NCBI GenBank assembly: GCA_021773835.1
Contig: JAJFJQ010000028.1
Location: 62,001-126,000, forward strand
DNA from: Gammaproteobacteria bacterium
Lineage (GTDB): Bacteria > Pseudomonadota > Gammaproteobacteria > Ga0077536
Length of the DNA: 64,000 bases
Direction: 5' to 3'
Under the pieces are notes generated by a model. The model was not told the DNA's origin. It did no database searches and worked only from the letters and a program-made list of their open reading frames with translations. The position numbers and the translations under genes were made by a program. Below, one piece after another: positions 48,776-64,000 of this stretch. The first letter of the stretch is position 1, and each line of letters begins with the position of its first letter.

Positions 48776-49549
48776 ATGAGCAGGGGGTTCTTAAAGACGT
48801 GCGCGTACATGCTCGTGGTGAGCACCGCGCCGGGCTATGCGTTATCAATATCTCCCGCTACTGACTACACCATCAGTCAAACCACCGTGTATGACGCGTC
48901 AAGCGAGGTAACGATCGGGTTACGGATTGGCGCTAATAATCAATGCGACAGCATCAAGGCCAGCCTATTGCAACGCGCAACGGCGCTTGCGACAACCCTC
49001 GATGAACGCACTATCCCAACTTGCACTACGGATGCTAATGGTGACATTCCATTCAGCTTTACGGCGCCGGCCGTCGTTCGTACTACCCGGCTCACGTGGG
49101 AGATACAAAGCTGTGACCGAGAGCGACGTTGCGAAATCATCGGAGAATTCAATTTCATTGTATTACCGGCCGATTATTTGCAAACATTAATTGATTGGAG
49201 CGCGGAACATACGGTGTTGGTCGCCGATCCCGCTGGATGGCTTGCCGCATTCCTCGACCGGATTGGGGTGCAATATACGGAGAATGCACGCGCGGTGGCG
49301 GCCGACAGCGACGTCGTTGTGTTGGTAACGGTCACCGACCCAACTAAGCCCGCAGCGCACGGCCTACCGCCTCGATTCCCGAAACGCGTCATAGAATTCC
49401 ACGACTACCCGTCCGCGCAACCAATCGTGTGGGTCGAGTCCTCCGCTGATGGCACCGTCATTGCGGTTAAATATCCATGGATTCATGGATCCGAAAGAGA
49501 TGCCGCCAACAAGAAAATGTTCTATGAACTGTTTCAGCGCCTATTTTGA
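48776..49549 (+). CDS. Secreted protein of unknown function, first gene of the FlgO/CsgG-like cluster
   Basis: About 257 residues with a Sec signal peptide (LKTCAYMLVVSTAPGYA) if ATG 48776 is used; the longer frame from 48695 starts in unconvincing sequence. The mature N-terminal half is beta-rich with four cysteines (NNQCDSIK, IPTCTTD, IQSCDRERRCEI), likely two disulfides; the second half looks alpha/beta (TVLVADPAGWLAAFLDRIG, VVVLVTVTD). No family is recognised. The next gene is 17 bases downstream and the set appears to be one operon, so it is probably a periplasmic part of the same apparatus. Confidence 0.72.
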   Translation: MSRGFLKTCAYMLVVSTAPGYALSISPATDYTISQTTVYDASSEVTIGLRIGANNQCDSIKASLLQRATALATTLDERTIPTCTTDANGDIPFSFTAPAVVRTTRLTWEIQSCDRERRCEIIGEFNFIVLPADYLQTLIDWSAEHTVLVADPAGWLAAFLDRIGVQYTENARAVAADSDVVVLVTVTDPTKPAAHGLPPRFPKRVIEFHDYPSAQPIVWVESSADGTVIAVKYPWIHGSERDAANKKMFYELFQRLF

Positions 49550-49566
49550 AGGCTGGAGTATCCATA

Positions 49567-50535
49567 ATGACTAATGAAAATCTCGCTAATTTTTATGCCG
49601 CTATCAGTGCCGCAATATTGACGGTACTTTCGTTCGGCAGTTTCGCAGCATCGACCGATACCAATGCGACCGGTTTCAGCGTCGCTGTACTACCGTTTGC
49701 CGCCGATGAAGAACAATACGGCGAGTTAGGTCGGGATCTTCAAAGTTTGCTGACTGCGCACTTATCCTCAGACGCGAAAATTATATTAGTCGAACGGGCC
49801 GAACTCGACACCGCACTGTCGGAGACTGAGCTGGGGATCTCCGGCACCGTCGATCCGGAAACGGCGGCGAAGATCGGCTATATCACCGGCGCTCAAATTC
49901 TCGTAACCGGCCGCGCATTTAGCGTACAAAAAGAGCTCGTTGCCGTGGCAAAGATCATCGGTACGGAAACGAGTCGCGTGTACGGTGAAACAGCAACGAT
50001 GCCGCTACGTGGATCGGCGGTAGAGATGTCGATTGGCTTGGCCGAAAAGATCACCAACACGATCAACACGCGGGGCGATACATTGATCGCAACCCATGTA
50101 CCAAAAGCAGATGTCGTCACAGGCCTCCGCCCTCTAGTCGACGGCAAGACATTACCAAGCGTGTCAGTAAGCATCTCGGAAGTCAGCTTAAATCAGGAGG
50201 TTCCGGACCCGGCGGCAGAAACGGAGATTGCCTTTATCTTACAACAACTCGGTTTTCGGCTTATCGATCCGGAAGCCTCTAACGAACTGGCGGATGTTGA
50301 GATAAGCGGCGAGGCGTTCAGTGAATTTGGCTTACGCAAAGGGAATCTAGTGTCGACCAAGGCACGCATCGAAATCAAGGCAGTCGATCGCAGCGCCGGC
50401 GAAGTTTTGTTAGTTGATCGCGAAACGGCGGTTGCGGTGGATCTATCGCCTGAAATTGCCGGCAAGAATGCGTTGGCGAAGGGCGCGTCCCAACTGGCGG
50501 TACGGCTAGTGAGGCGGATCGTCGAGGGCAGTTAG
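49567..50535 (+). CDS. FlgO/CsgG/TolB-N-like secreted protein (cluster paralogue 1)
   Basis: About 322 residues with a signal peptide (AAISAAILTVLSFGSFAA). The first domain carries the pattern shared with two downstream proteins: VAVLPFA, a RDLQSLLTAHL helix, LVERAELDTALSETEL, GAQILVTGRAF. A second similar-size domain (VSVSISEVSLNQ, QLGFRLIDPEASN, ADVEISGEAF) looks like a degenerate repeat of the first. GGAG precedes ATG 49567. Such domains occur in outer-membrane FlgO, CsgG and in TolB; here no lipobox is seen, so a free periplasmic or partner-bound protein is likely. Confidence 0.75.
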   Translation: MTNENLANFYAAISAAILTVLSFGSFAASTDTNATGFSVAVLPFAADEEQYGELGRDLQSLLTAHLSSDAKIILVERAELDTALSETELGISGTVDPETAAKIGYITGAQILVTGRAFSVQKELVAVAKIIGTETSRVYGETATMPLRGSAVEMSIGLAEKITNTINTRGDTLIATHVPKADVVTGLRPLVDGKTLPSVSVSISEVSLNQEVPDPAAETEIAFILQQLGFRLIDPEASNELADVEISGEAFSEFGLRKGNLVSTKARIEIKAVDRSAGEVLLVDRETAVAVDLSPEIAGKNALAKGASQLAVRLVRRIVEGS

Positions 50536-50600
50536 CAGATTATTTACCCGGTTGCGCATTACCCAACATCGACTTCGATTCTTCAACAACCCGACGCCCA

Positions 50601-53600
50601 ATGCTTAGTCGCGTTGCCTCGATACTTATACTTAGCCTGTGCGCTGCCTTGGCCGAGGCCGAACCCATTACGATCACGGTCTTGCCGTTCGCTGCAGTAG
50701 ATGGTGAGCGACGAAGCTGGCTCGGTAAAGGCATAGCCGACATTCTCTCTCGTAACCTCACTGAGCTCGATCAATATCGAGTCGTCGACCGCGGCCAGCT
50801 ACAAGCGTATTTGCGCGAAATGGAACTCCAAAGCAGCGCCTTCACGAATACTGATCAAGCGCTTCGTGTGGCCCGCGTGACTAAAGTCGCGCAGATCGTG
50901 GTCGGTAGTTTCCGGGTAGATCGCGGTAAATTGAACGTGGAGCTCGCGCTAATCGAGCTCGGCGGCGAGACCATCACCCAGACGTTGAAAGTTAGTGGCG
51001 CTCTGGACGACTTACAGTCGTTGCTAGCTGATCTTATCGTGCGCCTCGCTCAAGGGCAGGGAATTAATGCCACTGAGGACACCCTCTCCCTGCTCTTGCG
51101 TCGACCGACCGAGTCATTGACCGCGCTTGAGTATTTTTATCGCGGTATGGATCTTCAAGACCAGGGCGAATACGAAGCCGCGGTTGGCGAGTTTATCCGC
51201 GCTGGAACCATTGACCCGAGGTACAGCGAGGCGCAACTTTGGGTAGGACGAATGTTTGAGTTTTTATCCTTGGATGCGCTTGCAATTAGTGCCTATGAAC
51301 AAGTCGCAGCGCAATTTCCACGCGCGGTGGACGGATTAGATGCAGGCCTGCTTGCAGCTCAACTAGAACGCCGCACTGACGCAGCATCGGCCGCGCGTAG
51401 ACTACAAGCGATTGCCGGGATTCGCCCAGTACGATCGCACACAGTGGAAGCTAGCTTTATGCTGGGTGAGGCACTCGAGTCGAAGGCCGACTTGCGAGCG
51501 GCCTACGAAGCATATGCGCAAGTACTCACGCTCAGCGAGCGGCTCGAGGACACCCATTCGATTAGACGAAAACCCGATTCACGGTTCTTCCCGTGGCGGG
51601 CTGCTCTCAAGCGAAATCGTGAGGCGAACATTCGTATGGTTCAAATTTGGCGCGATCTCGATTTGAACGCACTCGACAAAACAGCCCCGTCGCCCCCTCG
51701 CGGTAGTATTGTGGTTTCCAGCGATTCGCCGAGTTTCGTGGAGCGCAAATACGGTCACACAAAACCATTGTTTGTGAACGAGGCGCCATCACCAAACTGG
51801 GCCGAGAAGTTCTATGCCGTCATCGCGCCGCCGGGATACACGATATCCGGCGTTAATCTGGGAATTCATGGGCAGTTAACCCATCCCGGCGGACGCCATG
51901 ACTATACAATGCGGGTATCGCGGTTTCCCATTCCACGGAACTACCACAACAGCTGGTTGGGGGTGATCTACGGACAAACGTCCAAACCGCGACACCTCAG
52001 TAAACACATACCGTTTTACGGTGCCGATCAAGCGATCCTGGCGCTGCAGTTCATTGAGAACCATGGACGAATATTCGATTGGGGGATTGACCTAAGCCTA
52101 CGGCCCGATAGGGGGATCCAACCGCGGACGGATACTTATAAAAACAAATCCCGCGCCTTCCATGAGGGCATCTTGCGGGGACGCATCGAGTTACACGAAC
52201 CGGCGTTCTCGGGAGTCGCAAAACCTTTGAGTGAGCATTGGTATGAGGCGCGGCAATCGCTCGCGCTTGGACCCAAACGTGCGCAAGGTTTGCAGCTTGT
52301 GTTTGTCAAAGGCGACCTTGGCACATCACAAACCGACCTGTGGGGATCAGAAAGTAGCGGCGGGCGGCAGTGGACTTCTCCGGTACGGCTTGGGTTTAAT
52401 TCCTTAAGCGACGATTTTCTACCACAACTGGTTGGCGCAGAAGACGGTAGTGTGCGCGCTTTTTGGATCTCGAATCGGCGCGGTTTAGGGTGGGAGTTGT
52501 GGACGAGCATGCGGAACCAAGGCACCGCCGCGTGGGAACCCGCACTGCGCGTGCCCTTGGAAGCGTTTGGCGTGAACAGATCGCAATCCGATCATGCACC
52601 GACAAGATTGTTACATTACGCGGGGATCCAAGACCGGCGCGGACAGTGGGTCTTGGCGGTCGCTGCGCCAAAGCGAAAAACCGTCTTGATTCTCCTCTCT
52701 GTCGACGGTGAAACTTGGGTTCAGAAAGGGGCAATCGAAGCGCCGTTCGCCGTTGTTAACCCGGCTATTGTTGAAGATGCTGGAGGCCGCTATCGCCTAG
52801 CTGCGTTCGGCACGGCCGGCCGGTTTCATCTTTGGAGTTCGAACGACCTCGTAGAATGGGGCACGCGTGACTTCGAGCTGAACAACTACAACCATATCAG
52901 TGAAGTAGCGCCGCACCGCATCCAGCTAATTTCGCATAGCAACGATGAACTCACTGCTCTCATATCTGACACCAAGGTCGGCTTACAGTACGCGCGATTC
53001 AACCCAGATACGGACGCGCCCATATTCGACCTCGTGCGGCGAGTAGGGCTTGAAGATTACGCCGTGAGTGCCTACGACGGCCGATATCTGGTCGCGCGCC
53101 GTCTAAATGATGCAATTGAGTTTCGTGAGTACGAGCACTTCCAGACGCACCCGGGAGATCGCAAGCCGGATCGCGGAATCATCTACTCGGAATATTCGCA
53201 GGGCATCGCTGGTAACGATTGGCGCCGTATATTTGCTCGCCGGCGTGTGATCCAACCCGATGTAACAACCGTTGGGGTCGGTGCCGATGAGCGGGTGTGG
53301 TGGGGGATCGAAACCGGTGCAATGACGTTAAAAAAAAGCGATTTCTTCGCAGTCGACGTAGCGGATGGTTTTTTCCATCACCATGTCACGATAATCACGC
53401 CGTGCGGAAAAACGACCGGATTCGCCTCTCGCGATCTTGAGCAGCCACGTATCGGGATCGCACGCCGGCGCGCTAACGGTTTTAAATTTAGTCGGCGAGA
53501 TCTACCGAAAGCGAAGGGTAAGGTCACGGCGATGATATGCAGCAGTAATGGCGTGTATGTCGTCGGAACCTCACACGGGCATGTCGTCGCAGTTGATGGC

Positions 53601-54107
53601 CCAAGCATAAAACTCCTGCATCATTTTCCAGATGAGGGGATCACGGCCCTCGCACACGGCGGATCGGACGCTAGCTTTCTCGTTGGGACCAGCGGCGGGA
53701 AAATCGCACGCTTCGATCCTGAGTTAACGGAATTGGAGATGGACGGGGTTACGGCTGGCTCCATAACGGCCCTCACCGCCGATCGCCATGGCGCGATCTG
53801 GTTTGGAGTTGACGGCGGTGGCGTATACACCGGTACAAGTGGTGCTTGGTGGCAGCCGATGAAGGATTTTGAACAGGCCTACGCCACCGTAAGTCAGATC
53901 CGAGCCGACCCACACGATGGCGTGTGGATGATTTCAAATCCGGATATTCGTTCTCGCGGCGTTCTCTACAGTAACGCTAAGCAGCATCAATTGTTGCACC
54001 CGATCGATTATGAGCTGCGTGCACCGACCGGGCTCGCCGTCTCACCAATGGGTACGGTTTGGGTCGGTACCGCATTCGATGGTTTATTTGGAATGGCGAG
54101 GCGATGA
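50601..54107 (+). CDS. Giant envelope protein: FlgO/CsgG-like domain, TPRs and beta-propeller repeats (cluster paralogue 2)
   Basis: A 1168-residue secreted protein. Residues 1-20 are a signal peptide (SRVASILILSLCAALAEA). Residues 22-160 are a FlgO/CsgG-like domain (ITVLPFA, GKGIADILSRNL, VVDRGQLQAYLREMEL, AQIVVGSF). Residues about 173-330 hold TPR-like helices (EYFYRGMDLQDQGEYEAAVGEF). From about 345-560 lies an unrecognised middle part. About 596-866 reads like a sialidase/GH43-type propeller (RAFWISNRRG, FHLWSSNDLVEW). About 1010-1168 has two-component-regulator-propeller repeats (ITALTADRHGAIWFGVDGGG; GLAVSPMGTVWVGTAFDGL). No ribosome binding site is obvious. Function unknown. Confidence 0.8.
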   Translation: MLSRVASILILSLCAALAEAEPITITVLPFAAVDGERRSWLGKGIADILSRNLTELDQYRVVDRGQLQAYLREMELQSSAFTNTDQALRVARVTKVAQIVVGSFRVDRGKLNVELALIELGGETITQTLKVSGALDDLQSLLADLIVRLAQGQGINATEDTLSLLLRRPTESLTALEYFYRGMDLQDQGEYEAAVGEFIRAGTIDPRYSEAQLWVGRMFEFLSLDALAISAYEQVAAQFPRAVDGLDAGLLAAQLERRTDAASAARRLQAIAGIRPVRSHTVEASFMLGEALESKADLRAAYEAYAQVLTLSERLEDTHSIRRKPDSRFFPWRAALKRNREANIRMVQIWRDLDLNALDKTAPSPPRGSIVVSSDSPSFVERKYGHTKPLFVNEAPSPNWAEKFYAVIAPPGYTISGVNLGIHGQLTHPGGRHDYTMRVSRFPIPRNYHNSWLGVIYGQTSKPRHLSKHIPFYGADQAILALQFIENHGRIFDWGIDLSLRPDRGIQPRTDTYKNKSRAFHEGILRGRIELHEPAFSGVAKPLSEHWYEARQSLALGPKRAQGLQLVFVKGDLGTSQTDLWGSESSGGRQWTSPVRLGFNSLSDDFLPQLVGAEDGSVRAFWISNRRGLGWELWTSMRNQGTAAWEPALRVPLEAFGVNRSQSDHAPTRLLHYAGIQDRRGQWVLAVAAPKRKTVLILLSVDGETWVQKGAIEAPFAVVNPAIVEDAGGRYRLAAFGTAGRFHLWSSNDLVEWGTRDFELNNYNHISEVAPHRIQLISHSNDELTALISDTKVGLQYARFNPDTDAPIFDLVRRVGLEDYAVSAYDGRYLVARRLNDAIEFREYEHFQTHPGDRKPDRGIIYSEYSQGIAGNDWRRIFARRRVIQPDVTTVGVGADERVWWGIETGAMTLKKSDFFAVDVADGFFHHHVTIITPCGKTTGFASRDLEQPRIGIARRRANGFKFSRRDLPKAKGKVTAMICSSNGVYVVGTSHGHVVAVDGPSIKLLHHFPDEGITALAHGGSDASFLVGTSGGKIARFDPELTELEMDGVTAGSITALTADRHGAIWFGVDGGGVYTGTSGAWWQPMKDFEQAYATVSQIRADPHDGVWMISNPDIRSRGVLYSNAKQHQLLHPIDYELRAPTGLAVSPMGTVWVGTAFDGLFGMARR

Positions 54108-54931
54108 CCCACCCGGCGCAAAGTGGAGCATCGGATCGATCTGCTCGGTGCAAACTTTTGCTGCTACGACCGCTGCTGGCTGTGATATTCGGTTGGTCGG
54201 TATTCAACACGCACGCGAGTGGCCCCGCGTTATTGTTACTGCCGTTCGACAATGCGACCGGCGCTCGGCAATTCGACGCACTGGCAGGTGGAATGCCAGA
54301 CCTGTTAACGGCGTGCTTTAGTCACTATCCAGACCAACTTGTTGTGATTGACCGCTCAGCATTGAGCCGCGCTATGAACGAGGTCGGACTATCGGTTGAA
54401 GCCTACGTAGATCCGGCCGAACGGCAACGCGCCGGCGCCATCGTGGGCGCAGATTTTGTCGTACGGGGTAGCTTCACCATGATTAACGGGGAGCTAAAGC
54501 TCGAAGTACTCACATTTAGTGTGACCGATGCCACACTCGTCGCAGCAATTGCGGCAACGCTCAGTGGCGAAGCTATTATTGAACAGGTATGCCGCGAATT
54601 GGCCGCACCCATGGTAGCGACATTGGCACGATTACCGGCGCAGGCGAAGCCATCCGCTGTAGATGATCCGGTTGAACAAGCGTTGATGATGGAAGGATTG
54701 AGTCACTACTACACGAACGATTTTGTTGCCGCGATCGCACCGTTTCTAAAATTGGTGCGCCTCGCGCCCGAAAATGAGAGCGCTCATTATTGGCTTGGTA
54801 AGAGCTTCGCTGGTGCAAAATTGGATAAATTTGCGGCGATCCAGTTAAACGCTTACCTAGCGGCGTTTCCGACCAGTCATCGAAGTGCGGAAGTCGAATC
54901 TATCGCGAAGTCACTAACTCCGAAAAGGTGA
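54104..54931 (+). CDS. FlgO/CsgG-like plus TPR secreted protein (cluster paralogue 3)
   Basis: About 275 residues from ATG 54104, which overlaps the stop of the giant protein by four bases (ATGA), so translation is coupled. A basic N-terminus and hydrophobic segment (LLLLRPLLAVIFGWSVFNTHA) act as signal or anchor. The domain shows LLLPFDNATG, AGGMPDLLTACF, VIDRSALSRAMNEVGLS and GADFVVRGSFTM, the same pattern as the two upstream proteins. Residues about 200-265 form one or two TPRs (GLSHYYTNDFVAAIAPFLKL, AHYWLGKSFAGAKLDKFAA). Confidence 0.75.
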   Translation: MTHPAQSGASDRSARCKLLLLRPLLAVIFGWSVFNTHASGPALLLLPFDNATGARQFDALAGGMPDLLTACFSHYPDQLVVIDRSALSRAMNEVGLSVEAYVDPAERQRAGAIVGADFVVRGSFTMINGELKLEVLTFSVTDATLVAAIAATLSGEAIIEQVCRELAAPMVATLARLPAQAKPSAVDDPVEQALMMEGLSHYYTNDFVAAIAPFLKLVRLAPENESAHYWLGKSFAGAKLDKFAAIQLNAYLAAFPTSHRSAEVESIAKSLTPKR

Positions 54932-54953
54932 AAAATAGACGAGAGAATCAAGC

Positions 54954-56195
54954 ATGAACGAGACGCAGCACCCCAGAACCGCACGCCCTTTATTGTGGAT
55001 GATGGCCATCGCAACGGCCGCGCTGATGATTTTTTGGATACTAAACCCCACGACTGGGCCGAACTCTACATCCACCACAGTTACGCACTCAAACACGCCA
55101 CAATTATTCAAAGAGCATCAAGGGCTTGATTTTCCATGGCCGCCGAGGTTGGGTGAGCCATTCCCTGACCTCGAGCTGGTCTCCCACACCGGTGCGACGG
55201 TGCGCCTATCCGACTTTCGCGGAAAGATTATATTAGTCGAGCCGATTGGGATGACCTGTGCTGCCTGCAATGCGTTTTCAGGTGCTCGCCAACGTGGTGG
55301 GTACCAGAATGTAATGGCGCAAGAGAACCTCCCATCAATTGAAAAGTTGCTACCGCGCTACGCGCAAGGCCATTCACTCGATGATGACCGCATTGTGCTA
55401 GTGCAATTACTGCTCTACGACATGAAGCTTCAGGCACCGTCTGCCGAAGACGCACATGACTGGGCACAACATTTCGGTTTCGATCAAAAACCAAACACCT
55501 ATGTATTAGCTGGCGACCAACGGTTTATCAATAAAGCTAGCTACGACATGATCCCAGGTTTTTTTCTTTTAGATAAGAACATGATCTTGCGCGCGGACGC
55601 CACCGGCCATCAGCCAAAACACAACCTTTTCACCGGATTACTTGTAAAAATACCAGAGCTATTGATTGCTAAGGTCAGCGCTGAACCGTTGGTAGATCAA
55701 AACACGACGATCACTTTATCGATGACTGTTGCCGAGGCCTACCAGGCAATTCCACACCAACAAACCACCTTTGCGCCCAACTTAGCATCCATGCCCATCA
55801 ACGAGCGCCGATTCATTGAAAGCTTATTTGAATTAACCGATTTTGCGGTGGCGGAGCGCGTGCAATCCTTGCACTACTTTCAAACCGGCGGGCAACGAGG
55901 AAACGCTCCGGTCAATTACCAAACGCTTTTGGCGCGCCTTAACGCGCTTAGTGCGCCACTAGCACTTGGGGAGGTGAAATCCTTAATTGCTTCAGCGGTT
56001 ACTGAGCAACAACGCTATTTTTCCAATCTTAATCCGCAAACGGAGCTGAAATTTAATTCACGTGACCCGCTGGTGCAAAGTTCGCATAGAAAACTGCTTG
56101 CAGCCTACCAGTTGTTGATTGCGCGCTACCAAAGCGAACACGCGCATAACAAAAAGGCCTTTTTTGATCACCTTTGTGCTTTGGATTTTATTTGA
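54954..56195 (+). CDS. Membrane-anchored thioredoxin-like protein with large C-terminal domain
   Basis: A 413-residue protein with one N-terminal membrane span (WMMAIATAALMIFWIL, 15-30) and a periplasmic redoxin/SCO-like domain (GEPFPDLELVSHTGATVRLSDFRGKIILVEP) with Cys102 and Cys105 in TCAACNAF, then GFFLLDKNMILRADATGH. Residues about 230-413 form a mainly helical C-terminal domain I do not recognise. It lies 22 bases after the preceding FlgO/CsgG-like gene and is likely the last gene of the operon. It may form or reduce disulfides in the cysteine-containing cluster proteins. Confidence 0.8.
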   Translation: MNETQHPRTARPLLWMMAIATAALMIFWILNPTTGPNSTSTTVTHSNTPQLFKEHQGLDFPWPPRLGEPFPDLELVSHTGATVRLSDFRGKIILVEPIGMTCAACNAFSGARQRGGYQNVMAQENLPSIEKLLPRYAQGHSLDDDRIVLVQLLLYDMKLQAPSAEDAHDWAQHFGFDQKPNTYVLAGDQRFINKASYDMIPGFFLLDKNMILRADATGHQPKHNLFTGLLVKIPELLIAKVSAEPLVDQNTTITLSMTVAEAYQAIPHQQTTFAPNLASMPINERRFIESLFELTDFAVAERVQSLHYFQTGGQRGNAPVNYQTLLARLNALSAPLALGEVKSLIASAVTEQQRYFSNLNPQTELKFNSRDPLVQSSHRKLLAAYQLLIARYQSEHAHNKKAFFDHLCALDFI

Positions 56196-62382: not shown

Positions 62383-63036
62383 ATGTCCGCCCAACCGCAG
62401 AAAGAACTCGTCACCGGCGAGACTTGGTACCAGCCTGGGGATGAAATCCCCAATGTCGGCATGAAACTGTTTGCACTGCGTAACCAGTGCACCGAGTGCA
62501 ACGTCTGTGAAGTCGCTTGTTCGTTGGTGCATTCTCCTGATGGGGAAATCAACCCGCAGCTCTCACGCGTGCGCATTGACCATGCCCCCGAAAAACCGAG
62601 CAAGGTCAATCAAGAAGGTCTCGGCTTTGTTGCCGAAATTTGTCACCACTGTGGCAACCCACCGCCATGTGCAGAAGTTTGTCCTACCGATGCGTTCTAC
62701 TATGACCCGAAAACGCTGGCGGCCGTGATCGATCAGGACAATTGTATCCAGTGCATGGAATGTGTACCGGGCTGCCCATTTGATGTGGTGTTCGTCGCAC
62801 CAAGCGGTGAATTATTGAAATGCGATCTCTGTGGTGGCGACCCGGTGTGCGTAAAGGCATGTTCCACCCGTCCTGAGATGCTAAACAAAGGAAAACAATA
62901 CAACCGTATGCCGGTACTTTTTTACGAGGAACAATCAGAATTCAACCGACTGTCCCGTGAGGAGCCTGTGGCGCGTGACGAAGTTGGCATCATGCAAGCC
63001 ATGTTAGAGGCCGGCAAGATCAGTTCGGGCGCCTAA
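62383..63036 (+). CDS. Four-cluster ferredoxin-like electron-transfer subunit of AOR
   Basis: A 217-residue iron-sulfur protein of the HycB/DmsB type with sixteen cysteines in four groups: CTECNVCEVAC, CHHCGNPPPCAEVC, CIQCMECVPGC and CDLCGGDPVCVKAC, enough for four [4Fe-4S] clusters. No signal peptide, so cytosolic. It lies 16 bases before an aldehyde:ferredoxin oxidoreductase gene and must pass its electrons to an acceptor. Neighbour genes for an NADH-linked flavin subunit could lie past the right edge. Confidence 0.92.
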   Translation: MSAQPQKELVTGETWYQPGDEIPNVGMKLFALRNQCTECNVCEVACSLVHSPDGEINPQLSRVRIDHAPEKPSKVNQEGLGFVAEICHHCGNPPPCAEVCPTDAFYYDPKTLAAVIDQDNCIQCMECVPGCPFDVVFVAPSGELLKCDLCGGDPVCVKACSTRPEMLNKGKQYNRMPVLFYEEQSEFNRLSREEPVARDEVGIMQAMLEAGKISSGA

Positions 63037-63052
63037 ACCGAGGAATAAGACG

Positions 63053-64000
63053 ATGGAAAGCAACTTATTGAGAGTAGACCTGACGACTGGCGAAATTAAG
63101 AACGAAATTATCGGACACGACGTGTTCGAGCGCTGGGTCGGGGGCTCGGGTATCAACAACTGGATAATGTGGGAACATTTTCTCACCCATGACATCAATT
63201 GCGATCCACGCAGCCCAGATAACATTTTCGTTTTCGGTGTCGGCCCACTCGCAGGCTCCGGCGCCGGTAGTGGCGTGAAAGGGCGCATCACTTTCAAGAG
63301 CCCTTGCTACGACATGTTTGGCGACTCTGCGGGCGGCGGCAAATTTCCTTACATGATTCGCTTCACTGGTTTCGAATATATCGCCATCACCGGTCGGGCA
63401 CCAAAGCCTGTTTATTTGCACATTTGTAATGACGAAGTATCGCTGCGTGACGCGAGCCATCTATGGGGCAAAGACACTAAAGACACACACGCCATATTGC
63501 AGAAAGAATTAGGCGACTATCCGTCTAAAACGCACACCTTGTCGATCGGACAAGCGGGAGAAAATCAAGTTGGCATAGCGGGGGTTGTTTCCGACGCGTT
63601 GCGCATCCACGCACGCTGCGGCGGTGGTGCCGTGTTGGGGTCAAAGAACTTAAAGGCGATAGCAGTACAGGGCGACGGTGGTATAAAGATTAAACGCCCG
63701 GAAGGATTAATGAAATGGTCGGACGAGTTTCGCCAAAGCCTTGACAAAAACGAAGCGGTCTACGGTTTCAAACGCCGCGGCACCTTGGGCGCAGTGGAGA
63801 TGTACCAACACATTGGTAGCCATTTCTGGCGTAATGGCCAAGGCAATATGTTCCGTGGCGACGACATCACCTCCGATAACTGGGTGAAACGCTTCCATAA
63901 GTATTCCGAAGTTTGCTCGTCGGATTGCTTCATTGCGTGTGACGCAAAGTACAAGATCGACGGTACGGAATCGGAGGCTTCGAAAGAATACATCGGCGAA
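63053..64000 (+). CDS. Tungsten-type aldehyde:ferredoxin oxidoreductase, 3' end outside window
   Basis: The first 316 residues of an AOR-family enzyme, open to the right edge; family members have about 600 or more. Typical N-terminal features are LLRVDLTTGEI, FERWVGGSGINNW, FVFGVGPLAGSGAGSGVKGRITFKSP split around the pterin region, GDSAGGGKFPYMIRFTGFEYIAITGRA, and GGGAVLGSKNLKAIAV. The [4Fe-4S] cysteines begin at Cys288 as CSSDCFIAC, i.e. CxxxCxxxC instead of the CxxCxxxC in Pyrococcus AOR. GAGGAAT precedes the ATG. It oxidises an aldehyde to an acid with the four-cluster ferredoxin encoded upstream. Confidence 0.92.
   Translation, partial: MESNLLRVDLTTGEIKNEIIGHDVFERWVGGSGINNWIMWEHFLTHDINCDPRSPDNIFVFGVGPLAGSGAGSGVKGRITFKSPCYDMFGDSAGGGKFPYMIRFTGFEYIAITGRAPKPVYLHICNDEVSLRDASHLWGKDTKDTHAILQKELGDYPSKTHTLSIGQAGENQVGIAGVVSDALRIHARCGGGAVLGSKNLKAIAVQGDGGIKIKRPEGLMKWSDEFRQSLDKNEAVYGFKRRGTLGAVEMYQHIGSHFWRNGQGNMFRGDDITSDNWVKRFHKYSEVCSSDCFIACDAKYKIDGTESEASKEYIGE

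Follow-up and report, generated by a model that had tools for sequence, protein, structure and literature searches.

The window analysed here is a stretch of 64,000 nucleotides from a Gammaproteobacteria bacterium (contig JAJFJQ010000028.1, positions 62,001 to 126,000), in which a preliminary description had proposed an envelope operon of five genes. These genes, here named A to E, lie co-directionally on the + strand at 48776–56195, and that description had placed all five correctly. Our analysis supports a conserved multi-part envelope module, because three of the encoded proteins have homologous N-terminal domains and the same gene order is found again in distant genomes.

Gene A (48776–49549; 257 residues) encodes a putative exported protein with five cysteines and no known family, and gene B (49567–50535; 322 residues) a protein with a signal peptide, a CsgG-like domain, B1, and a conserved second domain, B2. 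Gene C (50601–54107) encodes 1168 residues that comprise a CsgG-like domain, a tetratricopeptide repeat (TPR) solenoid, a beta-sandwich and two beta-propellers, as judged from a structural model, fold matches and the orthologue alignment. Gene D (54104–54931; 275 residues) combines a CsgG/LpoB-type domain with a TPR tail, and gene E (54954–56195; 413 residues) a membrane-anchored thioredoxin-like domain, E1, with a helical domain, E2. The stop codon of C overlaps the start codon of D, the two genes sharing 4 bases (ATGA), and gaps of 17, 65 and 22 bases separate A from B, B from C and D from E, respectively. Nearly all proteins of the module have N-terminal hydrophobic segments.

Three paralogues with a common N-terminal domain

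Profile–profile comparison with hhalign related the N-terminal domains of B (B1, 49672–50100), C (C1, 50661–51074) and D (D1) to one another with scores of 75.4 (B1–C1), 75.1 (B1–D1) and 74.4 (C1–D1) and probabilities of 97.6–97.7%, compared to best scores of 18.1, 19.0 and 14.1, respectively, in 30 column shuffles per pair. The common domain that had been proposed for these proteins was thus borne out: the three are homologous by hhalign and not unrelated folds. By these sequence comparisons, B, C and D are three paralogous subunits with one CsgG/LpoB-type N-terminal domain. The motifs first used to define it were approximate only, since C has KVAQIVVG and D has GADFVVRG.

Pfam CsgG was matched above its cut-off by B (E 8.7e-13) and C (E 3.3e-6) of the window, also in the search of their own genome; D of the window fell below it (E 0.085) and D of a Nitrospinaceae metagenome-assembled genome (MAG) passed it (21.7 vs 20.8 bits). 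No protein matched Pfam FlgO above cut-off, the best being the Nitrospinaceae B (15.9 vs 22.6 bits), and the best match to Pfam LpoB (PF13036), by a B protein, was slightly under the cut-off (22.0 vs 22.3 bits). D1 aligned with Escherichia coli LpoB at an hhalign probability of 61.9%, or 36.2% after sequences were added; C1 aligned weakly with the TolB N-terminal domain (17.5%), and C gave no Pfam match to TolB_N up to an E-value of 1. Hence, of the label "FlgO/CsgG-like" what stands is a domain of the CsgG/LpoB/TolB-N type, and FlgO or CsgG as such is too specific for proteins without lipobox or membrane hairpins.

In a tree of 29 N-terminal domains, 10 of them outsiders, B, C and D were each monophyletic (support 99/99, 100/99 and 99/98, respectively), which indicates that the three genes were already distinct before the set spread. 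Several long branches leave the mutual relations of the three groups unsure.

Additions to the common domain, and protein A

B is 47–78% identical to its six orthologues, and its second domain, B2 (50134–50532), is highly conserved. B2 had been described as a degenerate second copy of B1, which the sequence does not support: the hhalign score between the two (16.7) is at the level of the shuffle maximum (16.9); the two may still share a fold. No relative of A or B was found by sequence in the PDB, and a first, small profile of B was likewise without match.

For C, an AlphaFold2 model from a four-row alignment (mean predicted local distance difference test score, pLDDT, 67.6; predicted template modelling score, pTM, 0.44) placed the N-terminal domain at residues 23–152, followed by a TPR solenoid at 159–350 (51075–51650), a beta-rich, sandwich-like domain of moderate to low pLDDT at 391–502 (51771–52106) and two propellers, the first at residues 554–843 (52260–53129) with incomplete confidence. 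The second propeller (53202–54104), of the seven-bladed type, matched virginiamycin B lyase (2z2o; VIA Z 30.6, root-mean-square deviation (rmsd) 2.6, 282 aligned residues); many WD-type entries were nearly tied below this match, which is therefore informative about the fold alone. The VIA matches spanned residues 868–1168 and the N-terminal domain was barely covered by the fold comparison. Foldseek retrieved tandem propellers, including the BT4663 and BT4673 sensor domains (4a2l at rank 38, TMq 0.32), and a Pfam Reg_prop match was slightly under cut-off. The tandem arrangement is common to C and the BT4663-type sensors, but the propellers of C come without a histidine kinase and are joined to CsgG-like and TPR parts. 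The TPRs of C and D aligned with each other at 95.5% in hhalign, and those of D matched solved chains of designed TPRs, YbgF/CpoB and MamA. TPRs and propellers in C (from Pfam, the model and fold matches) and a TPR tail in D (from solved TPR chains) are therefore as first proposed.

Protein A has orthologues in six other loci and was assigned to no Pfam family with a meaningful E-value. Its description as a cysteine-containing secreted protein is plausible: each of the six orthologues has, near its N-terminus, a 17-residue stretch above 1.5 on the Kyte–Doolittle scale, whereas the window copy has none.

Gene E couples a thioredoxin-like domain to a conserved helical domain

The model of E (seven-row alignment; pLDDT 73.6, pTM 0.46) begins with a helix, continues into a thioredoxin fold and ends in a helical domain. 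The thioredoxin-like part, E1 (55131–55673), is of the TlpA/ResA/Sco type and carries a CAAC active-site motif at residues 102–105 (55257–55268). Its best structural match was aq_2194 of Aquifex (3me7; Foldseek E 5.2e-6; VIA Z 12.8, rmsd 3.8, 152 aligned residues), and ResA, CcmG and Sco were also among the fold matches. CxxC and IPG are present in all seven E1 sequences, and we take IPG to be the cis-Pro motif, the cis geometry itself being inferred. Pfam AhpC-TSA (cut-off 26) was scored at 18.9 by E of the window and at 26.1 by that of an alphaproteobacterial locus (L119), and a first, small profile of E retrieved only sub-significant thioredoxins among solved structures. E had been called a membrane thioredoxin, and with one hydrophobic N-terminal helix and this fold it is one; what had been missed is E2 (55713–56192).

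Six orthologues of E2 share the invariant motifs IPH, SH.KL, HN and FFDHLCALDF, which together hold four His and one Cys. Blocks of this domain were modelled mostly at pLDDT 75–96; the VIA matches of E spanned residues 55–239 and so barely covered it. By sequence, E2 gave chance-level matches only against solved structures, and no metal-binding family was recognised. Their conservation makes it plausible that the E2 motifs serve a TlpA/Sco-like partner as a metal or thiol site. E1 is fused to E2 in three genomes (the window, G009 and G984) and has a gene of its own in three others (G401, G403 and G981), so that one fusion occurs within an order in which two other genomes keep the two apart. 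Because they are fused, E1 and E2 probably act together.

The gene order recurs across two phyla

We found complete A-B-C-D-E loci in the window and in five other genomes, namely G009 (L022), G401 (L033), G403 (L035), G981 (L118) and G984 (L119), with a partial locus in G002 (L023), where the contig ends inside C. These belong to two classes of Pseudomonadota and, in the case of G403, to a Nitrospinaceae MAG. Among the six complete loci there are small additions or splits, with the gene order kept, and the flanks of the window, G009, G401 and G403 loci are mutually unlike on inspection. The neighbourhood survey thus showed that the order is not confined to this contig: distant genomes have it too, mostly between other flanking genes.

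The module is rare. Full-length C was present in one of 398 genomes of a phylum sample, the window's own, and in 0/397 others; full-length B in 1/249 phylum genomes, and complete E in 1/369 class genomes, in both cases again the window's own, with seven further genomes matching the thioredoxin part of E only. Three of the 36 genomes of the window's order have the module (G000, G009 and G002, the last cut by the contig end), as do 3/142 in the order of the alphaproteobacterial MAG G401, 1/385 in its class sample (the starting MAG itself) and 1/77 Nitrospinota. Weak matches to the CsgG or TPR part alone were not counted. A scan of 84,980 species with E yielded 37 pattern stretches and five related loci: UBA981 (its proteins identical to those of G009), the alphaproteobacterial (L033) and Nitrospinaceae (L035) MAGs, an Obscuribacter MAG (L034) and L036, which was set aside as an ordinary distant TlpA-like protein. 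Since the samples were partial, many MAGs are incomplete and the scan requires exact matches to short patterns, these counts are lower bounds.

Two of these loci depart from the common form. In the Obscuribacter MAG, E1 (L034, 7235–7882) is 53% identical to that of the window; B, C, D and E2 were not found nearby, and upstream of it is a large protein that by eye resembles VIT/vWA proteins. Its two upstream neighbours had no convincing similarity to A–E, and function could not be approached through this lone E1. In G009, C (L022, 8218–11760) is conserved on both sides of a single in-frame TGA, which lies after the sandwich region and ahead of the propellers; it may reflect a mutation, an assembly error or two separate proteins.

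Alphaproteobacterial loci carry a probable sigma/anti-sigma pair and an extra gene

At L033, L118 and L119 a gene for an extracytoplasmic function (ECF) sigma factor (Pfam Sigma70_r2, E 1.3e-17 to 7e-20) and one for a short protein lie immediately 5' of A. The short protein, which has no Pfam match, is probably the anti-sigma factor. In the regions upstream of A and of the three sigma genes, an ECF promoter pattern had no match. The same three loci have a gene X (141–167 residues) between C and D, and at L035 X adjoins the operon on the opposite strand; it was not found in G000, G009, G002 or G402. The X protein is small and anchored and contains G/D-rich strands that repeat; the two members scanned have no Pfam family. 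A second X-like gene of G401 lies away from the operon (L120, 8840–9397).

Inheritance and genomic surroundings

The identity matrices of A, B, C, D, E1 and E2 correlate at 0.84–0.98 over 15 genome pairs, as expected if the parts were co-inherited. Between L118 and L119, nonsynonymous divergence (dN) is well under synonymous divergence (dS) for A, B, C, D and X; the comparison of the window with G002 points the same way, and dS of A and B is saturated there. The scattered occurrence and fixed order suggest that the module was transferred as a block.

By eye, the 5' neighbour of the operon resembles a leuA-type gene, and unrelated small genes follow on its 3' side on the opposite strand; at the right edge of the window (62383–64000), an iron-sulfur protein and an apparent aldehyde ferredoxin oxidoreductase begin. 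Elsewhere, at six loci of four Pseudomonadota genomes (L075, L076, L077, L081, L083 and L084; G550, G648, G509 and G601), a TPR-bearing protein breaks off partway through a CsgG-like domain (profile position 118–120). The next open reading frame, examined at five of these, has its own N-terminal hydrophobic segment and apparently supplies the rest of the domain and TPRs, with an ATGA overlap in two cases. It looks as if the domain is naturally split there between two exported proteins.

Discussion

We put at roughly 55% the probability that A to E are inherited together as one module encoding a periplasmic complex, with three CsgG/LpoB-like scaffold subunits and a thiol-redox arm in which E1 acts on E2; assembly into one machine, and its function, we infer. 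A periplasmic location is suggested by the way E1 is anchored, by the hydrophobic segments at the N-termini, by the TPRs and propellers and by the ECF pair. In such a complex, B, C and D would probably bind each other through their common N-terminal domain, and C would be the large scaffold, its propellers and TPRs holding partners. E1 would hold a thiol or metal site in the reduced state; the likeliest candidate is the set of invariant Cys and His residues in E2, the alternative being cysteines of A. In the alphaproteobacterial form, the sigma/anti-sigma pair would turn the set on upon an extracytoplasmic signal.

Several observations weigh against this reading. Conserved order can also arise when independent proteins are regulated together, only the three alphaproteobacterial loci showed the sigma pair, and none of the three G000-family genomes searched has X. 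E1 can work without the scaffold, as it stands alone in the Obscuribacter MAG without B, C or D, and C of G009 contains an in-frame TGA. The model of C is of modest confidence, and the single-sequence comparisons with E. coli proteins are weak, for LpoB and TolB as given above and for CsgG (below 4%).

The module might instead serve to assemble or sense a metal or thiol site, with E1 as TlpA/Sco-like reductase for E2 and B, C, D and A as receptor or scaffold. The fold of E1, the E1–E2 fusion, the invariant residues of E2 and the ECF sigma pair at three loci speak for this, but E2 has no recognised metal-binding family or solved relative, and we regard it as possible at rather long odds. E1 has the thioredoxin fold, CxxC, IPG before a strand and membrane anchor of the TlpA/ResA/Sco thiol-disulfide oxidoreductases; it differs from them in a long insertion after CxxC and in having E2 fused or adjacent. 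More speculative still, and doubtful, is an extended form of the single-complex reading: a machine spanning the periplasm and handed from phylum to phylum as one block, turned on in some bacteria by an ECF sigma factor of its own, in which B, C and D would build a mixed ring or platform, C would hold cargo by its TPRs and two propellers, and E1–E2 would supply or sense reducing power or metal there.

It is unlikely that the set coordinates envelope work in the manner of LpoB, CpoB and TolB, with D as an LpoB-like domain plus CpoB-like TPRs and C as such a domain plus TPRs and propellers, adjusting peptidoglycan or outer-membrane work. The hhalign matches of D1 to LpoB and of C1 to TolB, and of the D repeats to YbgF/CpoB, would fit, but these similarities are weak, TPRs are common, there is no lipobox, and inspection of the neighbours by eye revealed no Tol, Pal or penicillin-binding protein gene. 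LpoB, the activator of PBP1B, resembles the module in the sub-threshold match of B and the weak profile match of D1, but the module protein is not a lipoprotein, D has a TPR tail, and the context differs. C likewise has the plan of an N-terminal domain plus propeller known from TolB, with CpoB-like TPRs, but no listed TolB_N match, two propellers and a sandwich, and no TolQRA or Pal recognised nearby.

Quite improbable is a curli-type secretion or fibre-assembly system with B, C and D as the outer-membrane pore. The N-terminal core of B, C and the Nitrospinaceae D is homologous to CsgG, the curli secretion channel (PF03783), and Pfam matches it in B and C, but these matches end at model position 98–104 of 210. 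On inspection, the stretch after this core is about half as long in B, C and D as in E. coli CsgG, where it holds the two membrane hairpins; the hairpin part has no counterpart in the three proteins, which have extra TPR or propeller parts. No lipobox pattern was found within the first 40 residues of the A–E or X proteins listed, and no csgE/csgF-type or other curli partner family was found by Pfam among the scanned A–E, X and sigma-region proteins. As the CsgG matches stop short and no lipobox was found, a membrane pore is unlikely, and a curli/CsgG pore was rejected with lipobox and hairpins missing. A chance neighbourhood of unrelated exported proteins, which the rarity of the set (no full-length C in the other phylum-sample genomes) might suggest, is contradicted by the same five-gene order in two phyla and is scarcely credible.

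A known anti-phage defence system was also rejected, as none of the five window proteins matched PADLOC at E 0.01. In the literature searched, which included few subscription journals, we saw no description of such a module; its domains are already known individually, and the set as a whole appears undescribed. It joins singly known parts (the LpoB/CsgG-type domain, TPR, propeller, TlpA-like thioredoxin and ECF sigma factor) in an arrangement fixed across two phyla, and supplies proteins or domains of no known family (A, X, E2 and B2). Should its products form one complex, they would make up a new assembly of the envelope whose redox step could be tested, and the built-in signal of the alphaproteobacterial copies could reveal its purpose.

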